Position numbers and translations under genes: made by a program
In this document: positions 9,908-32,881 of the stretch, one piece after another
How positions within the stretch are numbered: the first letter of the stretch is position 1
How the letters are laid out: each line of letters starts with the position of its first letter
Source of the DNA: an uncultured Flavobacteriaceae bacterium
Lineage (GTDB): Bacteria > Bacteroidota > Bacteroidia > Flavobacteriales > Flavobacteriaceae
DNA length: 64,000 nucleotides
Direction: 5' to 3'
Assembly: GCA_947502495.1 (NCBI GenBank)
Contig: CANNAC010000007.1
Span: forward strand, 124,001 to 188,000
The notes under the pieces: generated by a model
What the model saw: the letters and a program-made list of their open reading frames with translations, nothing else
The model's database searches: none
Told to the model about the DNA's origin: nothing

Positions 9908-10042
9908 ATTCCTGCGAAGGCAGGAATCTCATAAATTGAAACTAAATGTCACCTTGAGCGCAGTCGAAAGGTCTCAATCGATTAAACATGAAAAACGAAA
10001 ATTGAATCTAAATGTCATGCTGAGCTTGTCGAAGCATCTCAA
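9908..10042 (+). repeat. Three hairpin repeats between paaB and paaC
   Basis: 9908-9932 is a palindrome (TTCCTGCG/AAGGCAGGAA) with the tail TCTCAT. 9948-9977 and 10014-10042 are CGAGCGCAGTC-type repeats (GTCACCTTGAGCGCAGTC and GTCATGCTGAGCTTGTCG). The first shares 21 identical bases with the right-end hairpin of the GIY-YIG unit at 31557-31580, in opposite orientation. Confidence 0.85.
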
Positions 10043-11479: not shown

Positions 11480-11563
11480 GTCAGTTCGAGTGAAATTGCT
11501 TTTCTGCGATTTTGTATCGAGAACCAATAAAGAATTTGTCATTCCGCACTGGATGCGGAATCT
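11480..11563 (+). repeat. Two hairpin repeats between paaD and paaG
   Basis: 11480-11524 is a further copy of the TTCGAGTGAAATTGC...TATCGAGAAC repeat, with stem change GCGATTTT on the right. 11538-11563 is GTCATTCCGCACTGGATGCG plus GAATCT, nearly identical to 12427-12452. Confidence 0.85.
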
Positions 11564-12377: not shown

Positions 12378-12452
12378 GTCATCCTGAACTTGATTCAGGA
12401 TCTCATGAAAATAAGTAATCAGTTTTGTCATTCCGCACTGGATGCGGAATCC
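12378..12452 (+). repeat. Two palindromic repeats between paaG and paaH
   Basis: 12378-12406 is GTCATCCTGAACTTGATTCA plus GGATCTCAT (arms ATCCTGAA/TTCAGGAT). 12427-12452 is GTCATTCCGCACTGGATGCG plus GAATCC. Both point along the operon. Confidence 0.85.
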
Positions 12453-15414: not shown

Positions 15415-16626
15415 ATGGAAGCATACATAATAGACGGAATTAGAACACCAATAGGGAACTACAAAGGCACATTATCTGCTGTGAGAACAGATGATTTGGG
15501 TGCATTAGTAATTTCAGAAATCGTAAAAAGAAACCCAAGCATACCAAAGGAAGCCTATGACGATGTGATAATGGGTTGCGCAAACCAAGCAGGAGAAGAT
15601 AATCGTAATGTTGCGAGGATGTCATCCTTATTAGCAGGTTTGCCATTTACCGTGCCTGGAGAAACTGTAAACCGTTTATGTAGTTCGGGATTATCGGCAA
15701 TCATTCACGCAAATAGAGCTATAAAAGCAGGGGATGGCGACGTGTTTATTTCTGGTGGCGTGGAGAATATGACGCGCGGACCATACGTAATGGCAAAACC
15801 ATCTACAGCATTTGGAGGCGATTCTAAAATGTACGATTCTACTTTCGGATGGCGTTTTATCAATCCGAAAATGCAACAAATGTATGGCACAGACGGCATG
15901 GGAATGACAGCTGAAAATCTGGTGGAAAAATATAATATATCAAGAGAAGATCAAGATAAGTTCGCACTTTGGAGTCAGGAGAAAGCAACCAAAGCACAAG
16001 AAAACGGACGCTTAGCAAAGGAAATCGTAACGGTAGAAATTCCGCAACGCAAAAAAGATCCAATTCTTTTTTCTAAGGATGAATTTGTAAAACCAACAAG
16101 CTCTTTGGAGATCTTAGGAAAACTAAGACCGGCATTCAAAAAAGAAGGTGGAAGTGTAACTGCAGGAAACTCTTCAGGATTAAACGACGGAGCAGCAGCA
16201 ACTATTATAGCCTCAGCAGATGCAGTAAAAAAATACAATTTAAAACCATTAGCACGAATAGTAAGTTCTGCAGTGGTTGGTGTCGAGCCTAGAATTATGG
16301 GAATTGGTCCTGTGCAAGCTTCTAATAAAGCATTGGCAAAAGCAGGATTGACCATGGACGATATGGATATTATCGAGCTTAACGAAGCCTTTGCAGCGCA
16401 AGCATTAGCATGCATTCGCGCTTGGGGATTGGCAGATAACGACCCGAGAATAAATCCAAACGGAGGCGCAATTGCTATTGGTCATCCGCTTGGTGTTACA
16501 GGTGCAAGAGTCGCTTTTTCAGCAGCTTTAGAGTTGCAAGAAACCAACAAGCGTTACGCGTTAATCACGATGTGTATTGGTGTTGGACAAGGTTATGCGG
16601 CGATTATTGAACGAATTCCTGCGTAG
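15415..16626 (+). CDS. paaJ: 3-oxoadipyl-CoA thiolase PaaJ (PcaF-like)
   Basis: The 403-residue thiolase has the acyl-accepting Cys at residue 89 (NRLCSSGLSAI), the general-base His in GGAIAIGHPLGVTGAR, and the second catalytic Cys in MCIGVGQG. In PaaJ and PcaF it cleaves 3-oxoadipyl-CoA to succinyl-CoA and acetyl-CoA, and also 3-oxo-5,6-dehydrosuberyl-CoA. The last codons and stop (ERIPA then TAG) come from a palindromic repeat that overlaps the gene end. Two direct copies of the GCGTTAGGG element flank the gene. Confidence 0.93.
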   Translation: MEAYIIDGIRTPIGNYKGTLSAVRTDDLGALVISEIVKRNPSIPKEAYDDVIMGCANQAGEDNRNVARMSSLLAGLPFTVPGETVNRLCSSGLSAIIHANRAIKAGDGDVFISGGVENMTRGPYVMAKPSTAFGGDSKMYDSTFGWRFINPKMQQMYGTDGMGMTAENLVEKYNISREDQDKFALWSQEKATKAQENGRLAKEIVTVEIPQRKKDPILFSKDEFVKPTSSLEILGKLRPAFKKEGGSVTAGNSSGLNDGAAATIIASADAVKKYNLKPLARIVSSAVVGVEPRIMGIGPVQASNKALAKAGLTMDDMDIIELNEAFAAQALACIRAWGLADNDPRINPNGGAIAIGHPLGVTGARVAFSAALELQETNKRYALITMCIGVGQGYAAIIERIPA

Positions 16627-16637
16627 GCAGGAATCTC
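16615..16637 (+). repeat. Palindromic repeat overlapping the paaJ stop codon
   Basis: ATTCCTGCGTAGGCAGGAAT plus CTC. The TAG inside the palindrome loop is the stop codon of paaJ, so this repeat supplies both the last three codons and the stop. Confidence 0.8.
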
Positions 16638-19380: not shown

Positions 19381-19743
19381 GTTCCCACGAAAGTGGGAAT
19401 CTTATAAAAGAAGTTCAAAATATGAAGTATTACGTCTACATAATTACAAATAAAAAAGATGGTGTTTTGTATATTGGAGAGACGAAAAATTTAAAGAAAA
19501 GAATTTATCAACATAAAAATAAAGTCCATCCGACCACTTTTTCTGCAAGATATAATTTAGATAAGCTTGTTTATTTTGAAGAATATAATACTGAAGCAGA
19601 AGCTAAATTAAGAGAAAAGCAAATGAAGAAATGGAATAGAGCTTGGAAAATTGAATTAATAGAGCAGTTCAATCCGGACTGGAAGGATTTATATAAAGAT
19701 TTATAATACTAACTAAAAATGAGATTCCCTTTTTCAAGGGAAC
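19381..19743 (+). mobile_element. Candidate GIY-YIG mobile unit 1 (hairpin - nuclease gene - inverted hairpin)
   Basis: The left end is the palindrome GTTCCCACGAAAGTGGGAAT with tail CTTAT (19381-19405). The right end, read on the minus strand, is GTTCCCTTGAAAAAGGGAAT with tail CTCAT (19719-19743). Both tails face the nuclease gene between them, so the unit has inverted hairpin ends. It separates paaZ from paaF in the middle of the operon. The left hairpin is identical over 20 bases to a solitary repeat at 13750-13769. No flanking direct repeat is visible. Calling it mobile is inference from the similar unit at 31196-31580. Confidence 0.55.
19422..19706 (+). CDS. Small GIY-YIG nuclease family protein
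   Basis: The 94-residue protein is a stand-alone GIY-YIG domain: YVYIITNK and YIGET form the GIY...YIG pair (residues 3-20), followed by the helix with Arg (KKRIYQHKNK), the Tyr/Phe block YNLDKLVYFEEYNTEAEAKL and REKQMKKWNRAWK. It resembles the UPF0213/YhbQ-type small nucleases, whose biological role is unclear. It is about half identical to the protein at 31234-31554. The gene is inserted between paaZ and paaF within a pair of inverted hairpins. Confidence 0.93.
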   Translation: MKYYVYIITNKKDGVLYIGETKNLKKRIYQHKNKVHPTTFSARYNLDKLVYFEEYNTEAEAKLREKQMKKWNRAWKIELIEQFNPDWKDLYKDL

Positions 19744-30504: not shown

Positions 30505-30971
30505 AGCCCTAAATTAATCACGTTTGTTTCTTTTCCAGTAGAAAGTGTAATTAAACTTTGCACATTTCCGAGGTATGGAAGCAATGTGAGTTTTGATATG
30601 ATAAAGGTTTCATAAGCCTCAATATCTTCTACTACTAATTTTAGTAAATAATCAAAATTTCCACTTATTCGATGGCATTCTACGACTTCGGGGAAATTAT
30701 TTATTTCTTTTACAAACTTCTCTAGGTAGCTTCTGGTGTGGCCTTGCAAAGTGATGCCTATAAATACGGTGAGTTTTAGTCCTATCTTCTTATTGTCTAA
30801 AACAGCAACGTATTTTTTAATATATCCTTCTTTTTCTAGTTTTTTAATTCGCTCAAAAATAGGTGAAGTTGTCATGCCTAATTCTTTAGCAATACTTTTC
30901 GTGGTTCTATTGCTGTCCGTTTGAAGAATGTTTAGGATTTGTGTGTCAATTTTATCTAGTGTTTGAGACAT
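30501..30971 (-). CDS. Lrp/AsnC family transcriptional regulator
   Basis: The 156-residue protein has an N-terminal winged helix-turn-helix (LDKIDTQILNILQTDSNRTT, then IAKELGMTTSPIFERIKKLEKEGYI in part) and a C-terminal RAM ligand-binding domain (about residues 65-145). It is divergent from the 2-oxoacid dehydrogenase E2 gene. In Pseudomonas the Lrp homologue BkdR is likewise divergent from the branched-chain keto acid dehydrogenase genes, so control of the neighbouring E2-E1 genes by branched-chain amino acids is a reasonable inference. The tail overlaps the SCO gene by four bases. Confidence 0.9.
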   Translation of the reverse strand: MSQTLDKIDTQILNILQTDSNRTTKSIAKELGMTTSPIFERIKKLEKEGYIKKYVAVLDNKKIGLKLTVFIGITLQGHTRSYLEKFVKEINNFPEVVECHRISGNFDYLLKLVVEDIEAYETFIISKLTLLPYLGNVQSLITLSTGKETNVINLGL

Positions 30972-31040
30972 AAGGAAATAGTGTTTTTAATAGCTTCAAA
31001 TGTAACTATAAAAGCAAAATAAACTTTATTTATTTATAAT

Positions 31041-31059
31041 AAAAGAATTAAATTCTTTT
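31041..31059 (+). promoter_or_regulatory. Palindrome in the Lrp - E2 divergent promoter region
   Basis: AAAAGAATTAAATTCTTTT has perfect 9-bp arms around one base and is AT-rich, which suits Lrp-family operators. It lies about 70 bases upstream of the Lrp start and about 100 bases before the E2 remnant. Confidence 0.45.
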
Positions 31060-31138
31060 CTGAATTAATTTACAAGTTTTTAACAATCGAAAATCTTATT
31101 ATATCTTATCTTTAATTCTTGAAATAAAAACAACTAGC

Positions 31139-31234
31139 TTGAAGAATTACGAATTAAAAATGCCTAAAATGGGCGAAAGTATAACCAAAGTATCCAACTT
31201 CCTGCGTATGCAGGAATCTCATACTGTAAGGTAA
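31139..31234 (+). pseudogene. Remnant of the original 5' end of the E2 gene
   Basis: The frame from TTG 31139 (or ATG 31160) reads KNYELKMPKMGESIT, identical to the start of the intact E2 lipoyl domain at 31579, then diverges and stops at 31232-31234 after 31 codons. The stop TAA overlaps the ATG of the GIY-YIG gene (TAATG). This is the original translation start of the E2 gene, cut off by insertion of the nuclease unit. It may now serve as a leader peptide coupling translation to the nuclease gene. Confidence 0.7.
31147..31186 (+). repeat. Left copy of a 40-bp direct repeat flanking the GIY-YIG unit
   Basis: The 40 bases beginning TTACGAATTAAAAATGCCTA are identical to 31579-31618. They are part of the E2 coding sequence, so the host gene segment was duplicated when the unit between them arrived. 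The repeat-to-repeat distance is 432 bases. Confidence 0.9.
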
Positions 31235-31580
31235 TGCAGTTTTGGTATGTATACATCATGACTAATAAATCTAATGGGACAATTTATATTGGAGTTACTG
31301 ATGAGATACAAGAGAGAGTAAAAGAACATAAAATAAAATATAGACCCAATTCATTTACAGCCAAGTATAATTGTGATAAGCTAGTTTATTTTGAAGAGTA
31401 TATTGCAGCTGCTCCTGCTATAATTCGGGAAAGGCAAATGAAGAAGTGGAAAAGAGGGTGGAAAGTAAAATTAATAGAGGCTATGAATCCGAATTGGATA
31501 GATATATCAATAAATTGGAATTTAAACTATAATAAGTTTAGAAATGAAAGATAAACAGATTCCTGCCTTCGCAGGAAGTT
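31196..31580 (+). mobile_element. Candidate GIY-YIG mobile unit 2 inserted in the E2 gene
   Basis: The left end is AACTTCCTGCGTATGCAGGA plus ATCTCAT (31196-31222). The right end, read on the minus strand, is AACTTCCTGCGAAGGCAGGA plus ATCT (31557-31580). The tails face the nuclease gene, as in unit 1. Nine bases separate the left hairpin from the left 40-bp direct repeat, and the right hairpin meets the right repeat directly. The right hairpin shares 21 identical bases with the solitary repeat at 9908-9932. The duplication of host sequence is direct evidence of an insertion event. Confidence 0.7.
31234..31554 (+). CDS. Small GIY-YIG nuclease family protein in the E2 insertion
   Basis: The 106-residue protein shows YVYIMTNK and YIGVTD (GIY...YIG pair, residues 4-24), then QERVKEHKIKYRPNSF, YNCDKLVYFEEYI and RERQMKKWKRGWK. 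It is clearly related to the protein at 19422-19706, with an extra C-terminal tail (NWNLNYNKFRNER). Its start overlaps the stop of the E2 remnant, and its last 11 bases overlap the present start of E2. It looks intact, including the Tyr, Arg and Glu positions of the family. Confidence 0.92.
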   Translation: MQFWYVYIMTNKSNGTIYIGVTDEIQERVKEHKIKYRPNSFTAKYNCDKLVYFEEYIAAAPAIIRERQMKKWKRGWKVKLIEAMNPNWIDISINWNLNYNKFRNER

Positions 31581-32881
31581 ACGAATTAAAAATGCCTAAA
31601 ATGGGCGAAAGTATAACCGAGGGAACTATAATCAATTGGTTAGTAGCAGAAGGAGGCTCTTTTGAAGAAGGAGATATCATTCTAGAAGTTGCAACAGATA
31701 AAGTGGATAATGAAGTGCCAGCACCAGCTGCAGGAACTTTAATGAAAATATTATTTCAAGCAAAAGATGTTGTGCCTGTTGGAGAAGTAATGGCTATTCT
31801 GGAAGTTTCAGAAGAAATTAAATCTTCGAAAAATAAAGATGTCACTCTGAGTGCAGTCGAAGAATCGAAGACTAAGAAGAAAGATACTAAAAGACCAAAG
31901 CTAGTGCAGCAGCCTTCAGTTTCAAGTTCAGCTTCATTTTCAACTTCAAACACAAACGCTTTCTTTTCACCATTAGTAATCAAAATTGCAAAAGAGCATC
32001 ACATTAGTTTTGAAGAATTGGCACGAATTCCTGCAACAGGAAATGAAGGCCGTTTGCGTAAAAGTGATGTGTTTCAATATATAGAAGATGGTCGCCCGAA
32101 TAAATTTGCGCAACCAGTAGCAGAAAAAGACCCAACTGCATATAGAATTCCGCAATTGAATTTCGATAAAGGAAAAGGGAAAGTCATTGAAATGGATCGA
32201 ATGCGTCAAATGATTGCAGATCACATGGTGTATTCTAAACATACTTCGCCGCACGTTACTGCTTATGTAGAAGCAGATATGACGAATATGGTGCATTGGA
32301 GAAATGCAAACAAAGTCGCTTTTCAAGAAAAACATGGAGAACGTTTAACATTCACGCCATTGTTTGTAGAAGCAGTAGCGAAAGCTGTGAAAGATTTTCC
32401 GAATATAAATGCATCTGTCGACGGCAATAATATCATTGTAAAAGAAGATATAAATATTGGTATGGCGACTGCATTACCAAGCGGGAACTTAATTGTTCCT
32501 GTGGTGAAAAATGCGGATACTAAAGATTTAAAAACTATAGCAGCTAACGTAAATGAATTAGCAGGAAAAGCTAGAGAAAACAAATTAGCAGGAGACGATA
32601 TTAAAGGAAGTACGTTCACTATCTCAAACGTTGGTACTTTTGGAAGTGTGATGGGAACTCCAATTATCAATCAACCTGAGGTTGCTATTTTGGCTTTAGG
32701 AATTATTAAAAAAAGACCAGAAGTTATTACAACCGAAAAAGGAGATGAAATTGCTATTCGAAGTATGATGTACTTATCGCTTTCTTTTGATCATCGTGTT
32801 GTTGATGGCTTTTTAGGAGGAAGCTTTGTGAGAAGAGTAGCCGATTATTTCGAGCAATTTGATGTAGATAGAAAAATATAA
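31544..32881 (+). CDS. 2-oxoacid dehydrogenase E2 (dihydrolipoamide acyltransferase)
   Basis: The 445-residue protein has a lipoyl domain with lipoyl-Lys at residue 53 (ATDKVDN), a peripheral subunit-binding domain (SPLVIKIAKEHHISFEELARI, about 141-161, given in part), and the acyltransferase domain with the HRVVDG motif (His 417, Asp 421). With E1 downstream it forms the core of a branched-chain 2-oxoacid dehydrogenase. The first residues MKDKQIPAFAGS come from the end of the GIY-YIG unit. A shorter start at ATG 31592 (MPKMGESI) is also possible. Residues DVTLSAVEES in the linker are encoded by a dispersed repeat. Confidence 0.92.
   Translation: MKDKQIPAFAGSYELKMPKMGESITEGTIINWLVAEGGSFEEGDIILEVATDKVDNEVPAPAAGTLMKILFQAKDVVPVGEVMAILEVSEEIKSSKNKDVTLSAVEESKTKKKDTKRPKLVQQPSVSSSASFSTSNTNAFFSPLVIKIAKEHHISFEELARIPATGNEGRLRKSDVFQYIEDGRPNKFAQPVAEKDPTAYRIPQLNFDKGKGKVIEMDRMRQMIADHMVYSKHTSPHVTAYVEADMTNMVHWRNANKVAFQEKHGERLTFTPLFVEAVAKAVKDFPNINASVDGNNIIVKEDINIGMATALPSGNLIVPVVKNADTKDLKTIAANVNELAGKARENKLAGDDIKGSTFTISNVGTFGSVMGTPIINQPEVAILALGIIKKRPEVITTEKGDEIAIRSMMYLSLSFDHRVVDGFLGGSFVRRVADYFEQFDVDRKI
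31579..31618 (+). repeat. Right copy of the 40-bp direct repeat flanking the GIY-YIG unit
   Basis: Identical to 31147-31186. This copy continues into the functional E2 lipoyl domain (EGTIINWLVAEGG), so it is the working copy. Confidence 0.9.
31841..31870 (+). repeat. Dispersed repeat inside the E2 linker
   Basis: GTCACTCTGAGTGCAGTCGA plus AGAATCGAAG belongs to the CGAGCGCAGTC type. It encodes VTLSAVEESK in the flexible linker after the lipoyl domain, where extra residues should do little harm. Confidence 0.75.

Follow-up and report, generated by a model that had tools for sequence, protein, structure and literature searches.

A GIY-YIG gene between inverted REP-like hairpins at a flavobacterial E2 gene, a candidate homing-type unit

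How can a nuclease gene come to lie inside the coding sequence of a 2-oxoacid dehydrogenase E2 gene and leave an intact E2 downstream of itself? The question is raised by a locus in an uncultured Flavobacteriaceae bacterium, within a 64-kb stretch of one contig that was analyzed as a whole (64,000 nt; hereafter “the window”).

The unit and its empty site

A sequence-only reading of the window had described a GIY-YIG gene framed by inverted hairpins between two identical 40-bp stretches of E2, and coordinates, repeat, and Pfam assignment all agree with that description. The two copies (31147–31186 and 31579–31618; all features given here are on the forward strand) are identical in sequence and lie at the positions first reported, and no other 40-mer is repeated in the 64 kb, so that chance is a poor account of the duplication. 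Between them, a 24-nt inverted repeat (31196–31219 and 31557–31580; 92%) with two TTCCTGCnnnnGCAGGAA hairpins, the left one reading TTCCTGC-GTAT-GCAGGAA and followed by TCTCAT, encloses a 106-aa ORF (31234–31554) that belongs to the GIY-YIG family (Pfam, E = 9.6e-15). This is the only ORF of at least 50 aa wholly inside the unit, in keeping with the earlier observation that the unit encodes a GIY-YIG protein only, with no transposase or integrase ORF; no domain beyond GIY-YIG was found in the 106-aa protein, and a PDB sequence search with it gave no match at E 0.1. The right copy forms the start of an intact lipoyl domain, as had been read, and the E2 gene to which it belongs (31544–32881) is complete by Pfam (lipoyl, E3-binding, and catalytic domains).

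The left copy had been thought to run into unrelated sequence. That is too simple: no stop interrupts the E2 frame across the left hairpin until a TAA (31232–31234) that overlaps the nuclease ATG. The whole 5′ fragment (31139–31234), whose native start region is as in the nearest congener, is a possible leader ORF, presumably with a TTG start. At the other end of the unit, the new E2 start codon (31544–31546) falls within the nuclease 3′ end, and the right hairpin encodes, in the E2 frame, the peptide IPAFAG at the N-terminus of E2.

That a discrete unit entered E2 is borne out by relatives in which the site is empty. All six same-genus genomes within a sample of 60 relatives have a single E2 core match at the E2 locus (each locus compared) and no GIY-YIG motif in six frames over the 700 nt before E2; they carry neither the duplication nor the arrangement. 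In the nearest of them (G003; E2 89% identical), the upstream regulator side and spacer are kept, and the alignment score is 586 when the window flanks are joined directly after the left copy, versus 488 with the insert. A second same-genus pair (filled G283, empty G034) has left flanks identical at 258 of 279 positions. An empty allele at the same place in relatives, a feature of free-standing homing endonucleases, is therefore present, and the exact 40-bp repeat, set beside congeners with one E2 start, upholds the claim that host sequence was duplicated.

Three other origins were considered and rejected: an assembly artefact, because like structures are present in other assemblies; classical transposition, because the unit has no transposase or integrase ORF; and a group I or group II intron, because an Rfam search of 30900–31900 returned one match (E = 0.86), to an sRNA, and no intron.

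Recurrence at E2 and how the unit may have entered

A unique event is not what the data support: other genera have the same site filled, tRNA genes harbor related units, and the hairpins are members of dispersed REP families. When GTDB genomes were scanned for nuclease homologues and the best 80 of 125 relatives were kept, 10 of these 80 lay at the E2 site, in the genera Winogradskyella, Lacinutrix, Aequorivita, Marixanthomonas, Xanthomarina, Gelidibacter, Hanstruepera, and Mesonia; together with the window and genomes G186, G283, and G092 they give 14 E2-site loci. The right hairpin stands immediately 5′ of the codons for ELKMPKMGES, or their equivalent, in most of the 14, the Mesonia unit (L158) lying further upstream. 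A strict hairpin-plus-E2 pattern matched 2 of 397 genomes of the family, a lower bound that misses known variants. In G186, the unit occupies a different E2 paralogue (LPKMGESVAEATIT), at the homologous place and with its own local copy; neither the window's own genome nor G366 has a unit in this paralogue. Two units stand in series, a truncated older one and an intact one, at G186 and at Xanthomarina locus L152. More than one entry into E2 is likely, mainly on account of the paralogue case and the empty congeners.

Other sites are also shared among the best 80 of 125 homologues. A sugar-nucleotidyltransferase-like gene adjoins 44 of the 80, across genera, a pattern suggestive of long residence more than of frequent jumping, and 43 of the 80 come after dut. 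Neighbors resembling paaB, paaA, and paaY accompany 10, 9, and 9 of the 80, respectively (names from NCBIfam, one example each; neighbor sets overlap).

Around E2 itself, a TTCCCAC-type hairpin or near variant is found in frame in the E2 N-terminus, near the window unit's spot, at L038 (G019), L131, L152, L158, and L161. At L038 the nuclease gene is absent directly at the E2 hairpin in the stretch shown, perhaps a remnant. Elsewhere (L069, in G016) a GIY-YIG unit lies between E2 and E1, with two hairpins inside the E1 coding sequence.

The reading to which we give slightly better than an even chance is that of a free-standing, homing-type selfish unit—REP-like hairpin, GIY-YIG gene, inverted REP-like hairpin—whose nuclease targets the E2 5′ end. 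The nuclease would recognize that conserved end (the codons for ELKMPKMGES or similar) and break or nick it, and repair would then install the unit, often duplicating some 25–50 bp of E2; the break in E2 would thereby drive both entry and re-entry. Position, recurrence, and structure support a homing-endonuclease-like way of working, though membership of the free-standing homing family is incomplete, since cleavage is putative and the target is rebuilt rather than destroyed. A homing insertion classically destroys its target and leaves the host allele immune. The rebuilt E2, unlike a classical homing target, should be recut, which counts against the reading that we favor.

The junctions bear on how entry took place. 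The left E2 fragment is kept at 9 of the 14 loci and absent at five (L130, L144, L150, L158, and L217); given these five, and the few host repeats among other GIY-YIG genes, a long host duplication as a general rule was rejected. The longest exact repeat across the unit is 40 bp in the window, 29 in G283, 21 in L166, 15 in L161, and 14 in L146; with hairpin sequence included, it is 48 bp in L131, 40 in L213, and 32 in L152, and in L136 it is the hairpin itself. When the first 24 nt of the left and right E2 copies were compared for eight units, pairs from the same locus totaled eight mismatches, a value as low being reached by 4 of 40,320 pairings (the true one included), with kinship among genomes uncorrected and the stretches picked by eye. 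The copies thus match best within their own genome, which indicates that each genome's duplication is its own. Five units have their left junction, as judged by inspection, at GG(C/A)GAA or immediately beyond it; in L131, L152, and probably the window it lies farther along, close to GAAGGAAC. In the window, 9 nt separate the left copy from the inverted repeat, the same length as the E2-like sequence found there in L131 and L152 (by inspection). These 9 nt are either derived from E2 or a slipped duplicate of the AAAGTAT before them; the original duplication in the window may have exceeded 40 bp.

The sequence-only reading had taken the length of the duplication to suggest staggered cutting or repair synthesis rather than classical transposition. 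The part that stands is that no transposase ORF is present and that staggered cutting is possible; other possible causes of the duplication are recombination and selection favoring insertions in which E2 is rebuilt. Such passive movement is the foremost rival. Foreign DNA would recombine at E2 through homology on one side and chance joining on the other, the nuclease would have no part in targeting E2, and only insertions that rebuild E2 would survive. Selection for an intact E2 would account for both the reading-frame overlaps described below and the duplication, five of the 14 units have no left fragment, and the right copy of G283 opens with codons like those of the element (SYELK) where the native start has KFELK. 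We nevertheless hold this explanation to be unlikely: chance joining would scatter the left junctions more widely than the two narrow places where they lie (five units at the first and two to three at the second), and a second E2 paralogue is filled at the homologous place.

The reading frames overlap at both ends of the unit. In seven of the nine left fragments, the frame runs uninterrupted across the left hairpin, and the stop codon that ends it starts at most 13 nt ahead of the nuclease start and at most 1 nt past it, the overlap being TAATG in both the window and G283; L161 and L166 have an earlier stop, and the left fragment of L136 is broken upstream. On the right, the ATG of the rebuilt E2 precedes the nuclease stop codon by 5, 8, or 11 nt at 12 of 14 loci (the exceptions are L146 and L158), and the right hairpin is read in frame as IPAFAG, FLPAQ, FPLSW, or similar peptides. 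We infer from this arrangement that translation is probably coupled, i.e., that the native E2 start would serve the nuclease and the element's start would serve the rebuilt E2. The overlaps may have been kept by selection for E2 and not made by the insertion reaction.

In the nuclease protein, residues Y7, Y18, G20, R28, H32, and E66 are common to 25 aligned sequences, and Y7, Y18, R28, H32, and E66 are those that we take to correspond to GIY-YIG catalytic roles; by Pfam and invariant residues, the predicted protein has the complete catalytic set. In 10 of 11 pairs dN/dS is 0.07–0.27 (dS is zero in the eleventh), and the nuclease gene is therefore under purifying selection. On a poorly resolved tree (72 proteins, 105 columns), E2-site rows need five site changes, at least two of them forced by well-supported branches and one spurious (L211, a duplicate of L130 that was labeled “other”).

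The tree also bears on a second rival, in which a single ancient insertion in E2 was inherited vertically and lost in most lineages, its copies being kept alike by gene conversion. Twelve of the 14 E2-site proteins do fall in two tree groups, and recombination between direct repeats would remove a unit cleanly. Against this history stand the six of six empty congeners, the different paralogue filled in G186, the Mesonia L158 protein, which clusters with Flavobacterium dut-site rows (support 92/91), and the window protein, on a fairly long branch, whose highest identity in the tree (74%) is to a paaAB-site row; taken together, they make a single ancient insertion improbable.

Hairpin families and other GIY-YIG genes

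The hairpins of the window unit are members of a dispersed family. The window's own genome holds 29 exact TTCCTGC-N4-GCAGGAA sites and none of the reversed pattern, and a longer form of TTCCTGC (at most two mismatches) turns up in 20 of 60 relatives, covers 14 of 50 genera, and is densest in the window's genus. Two solo copies lie in the window (9909–9926 and 16616–16633; hairpin scan). Several of the 15 solo TTCCTGC copies that were looked at, of the 29 (L014–L028), directly precede an ATG or directly follow a stop triplet, an arrangement that full units also have. These REPs are numerous also in genomes in which no intact cognate gene was found (e.g., G004), which fits old remnants and is no proof of trans-mobilization. 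A second family, GTCATTCYGC, has nine sites in the window's own genome, eight in G003, nine in G004, and three in G001, at most one in each of 33 other genomes, and none in the reversed control. Two copies of the GTCATTCCGC REP family lie in the window (11538–11562 and 12427–12451; converted coordinates).

Other GIY-YIG genes are bounded in a similar way. The window's own genome has 13 PF01541 matches, of which eight (L001–L008), by inspection, have REP-like palindromes on both sides, the families differing; L009 and L013 have none, and L010–L012 are longer proteins. One of the eight (L001; 19422–19706) is a second GIY-YIG gene in the window, identified by Pfam and flank comparison, with another hairpin family at about 19382–19399 and 19725–19742 (all converted from locus coordinates). 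Two GIY-YIG genes (L008 and L081) lie within tandem arrays of paired REPs, with a period of about 131 bp in L008.

An inverted-repeat score of at least 26 between 200-nt flanks was reached by 27 of 42 small GIY-YIG genes versus 7 of 107 control ORFs (Fisher, 6e-13), the 42 genes, from the window's own and related genomes, being partly dependent (orthologues, one duplicated copy). A null of mismatched GIY-YIG flanks, which recurring families inflate, has a median of 17, a 95% point of 29, and a 99% point of 39. An ORF filter had retained 43 genes from 78 loci (L002, L003, and L009 of the window's own genome were among those dropped), and the 43rd, with short flanks, was left out of the flank and tag tests. 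A GTC tag with an 8-bp stem on both sides was found for 7 of the 42 genes and for none of the control ORFs, of which there were only 11; eight other tags with an 8-bp stem on both sides were each found for 0 of 42. The window unit is not among the seven, its own two hairpins being without the GTC tag. Further afield, flanks are strong in Pedobacter (L201 and L202; scores of 79 and 76), and of nine alphaproteobacterial loci, four passed the motif filter, one with clear REP flanks (L252, 30) and three weak (L254, L255, and L257; 18–19).

The sequence-only reading had also proposed a search for other GIY-YIG units with flanking direct repeats, and its outcome was mixed. Scores of at least 22 were reached by 21 of 43 genes, but by inspection the repeat is clearly host sequence only in the window unit and in a tRNA unit (L076); one (L118) is ambiguous, and the repeats of the remaining 18 look like REP repeats. 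In other genomes of the family and order, GIY-YIG units lie in genes for tRNA-Val (L076 and L129), tRNA-Met (L121), and tRNA-Pro (L246), those at L129, L121, and L246 in tandem. Each comprises one ARAGORN-named tRNA and at least one partial copy, with a hairpin at the anticodon arm in the partial copies (by inspection); ARAGORN calls two of the partial copies tRNA-SeC. The arrangement resembles that at E2; the intact copy may be the left or the right one.

That the genome's Y1 (RAYT-type) transposase spreads the hairpins, with the GIY-YIG gene as a passenger, is very improbable: the single Y1_Tnp match over cut-off (L059) does have the highest flank score of the 107 controls (60) and so serves as a natural positive control, but the palindrome on its flanks is another one (of the GCGGATTTGCAATCCG kind), and several GIY-YIG genes have their own hairpin family on both sides. 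We infer instead that the GIY-YIG family itself may spread its cognate REP hairpins in trans.

Relation to known systems

The accessible part of the literature on Penelope-like elements describes a GIY-YIG endonuclease in a mobile element, but the window unit has no reverse transcriptase. Closer are the Seg genes of T-even phages (intronless homing), for which the available portions of two reports (PMC1564403, PMC13096335) describe GIY-YIG genes outside introns and inteins, beside or in their presumed targets, and tRNA-associated tandem units; catalytically active SegB, a free-standing GIY-YIG nuclease, is given there as required for tandem amplification of tRNA-segB units in phage T6 (PMC13096335). 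The window unit differs from the Seg family in being chromosomal, in its size (106 aa), and in its REP-like hairpin ends, in-frame splitting of a host gene, target duplication, and overlapping frames. It departs from classical homing in that the right copy rebuilds E2, and in the units in series at G186 and L152. The E2 unit suggests a way for a selfish gene to insert in frame into a conserved gene, make use of the start signals there, and restore the gene; such restoration would make repeated invasion of the same site tolerable.

REP palindromes are widespread bacterial repeats, and RAYTs are thought to spread those with a GTAG tag. With the RAYT/REPIN system, as the available part of one report presents it (PMC3733652), the units share a gene set between inverted copies of a short, dispersed palindrome; here, however, the enzyme is GIY-YIG and not a Y1 (HUH) transposase, and the tag, where present, is GTC and not GTAG. 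Some of the families found here are like the CGTC-tagged REPs (including dRS3 and RPE-4/6), which the accessible descriptions characterize by a [CT]GTC tag, an 8-bp stem starting A:T, a 4–5-nt loop, and copies inside genes. They differ in that the palindromes here bound a nuclease gene, and the window's two hairpins are without the tag. According to the part of a 2013 report that was available, CGTC REPs with this tag and stem are apparently without a dedicated transposase (PMC3733652). Among the titles and opening lines of abstracts searched, in which few subscription papers are covered, we found no later report of a CGTC REP transposase and none linking GIY-YIG genes with REPs, dRS3, or RPEs.

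A tentative proposal, to which we would give somewhat less than an even chance, is that small GIY-YIG nucleases are the missing mobilizers of the CGTC-tagged REP superfamily, each nuclease lineage spreading a cognate hairpin family of its own in the way proposed for RAYTs and GTAG REPs. The gene would move between paired hairpins into conserved genes (E2, tRNA), rebuild its target, and pass translation from the host start to the nuclease and on to the rebuilt gene. If this nuclease family is indeed the partner of the CGTC REPs, the question of what mobilizes them becomes a simple bench test.
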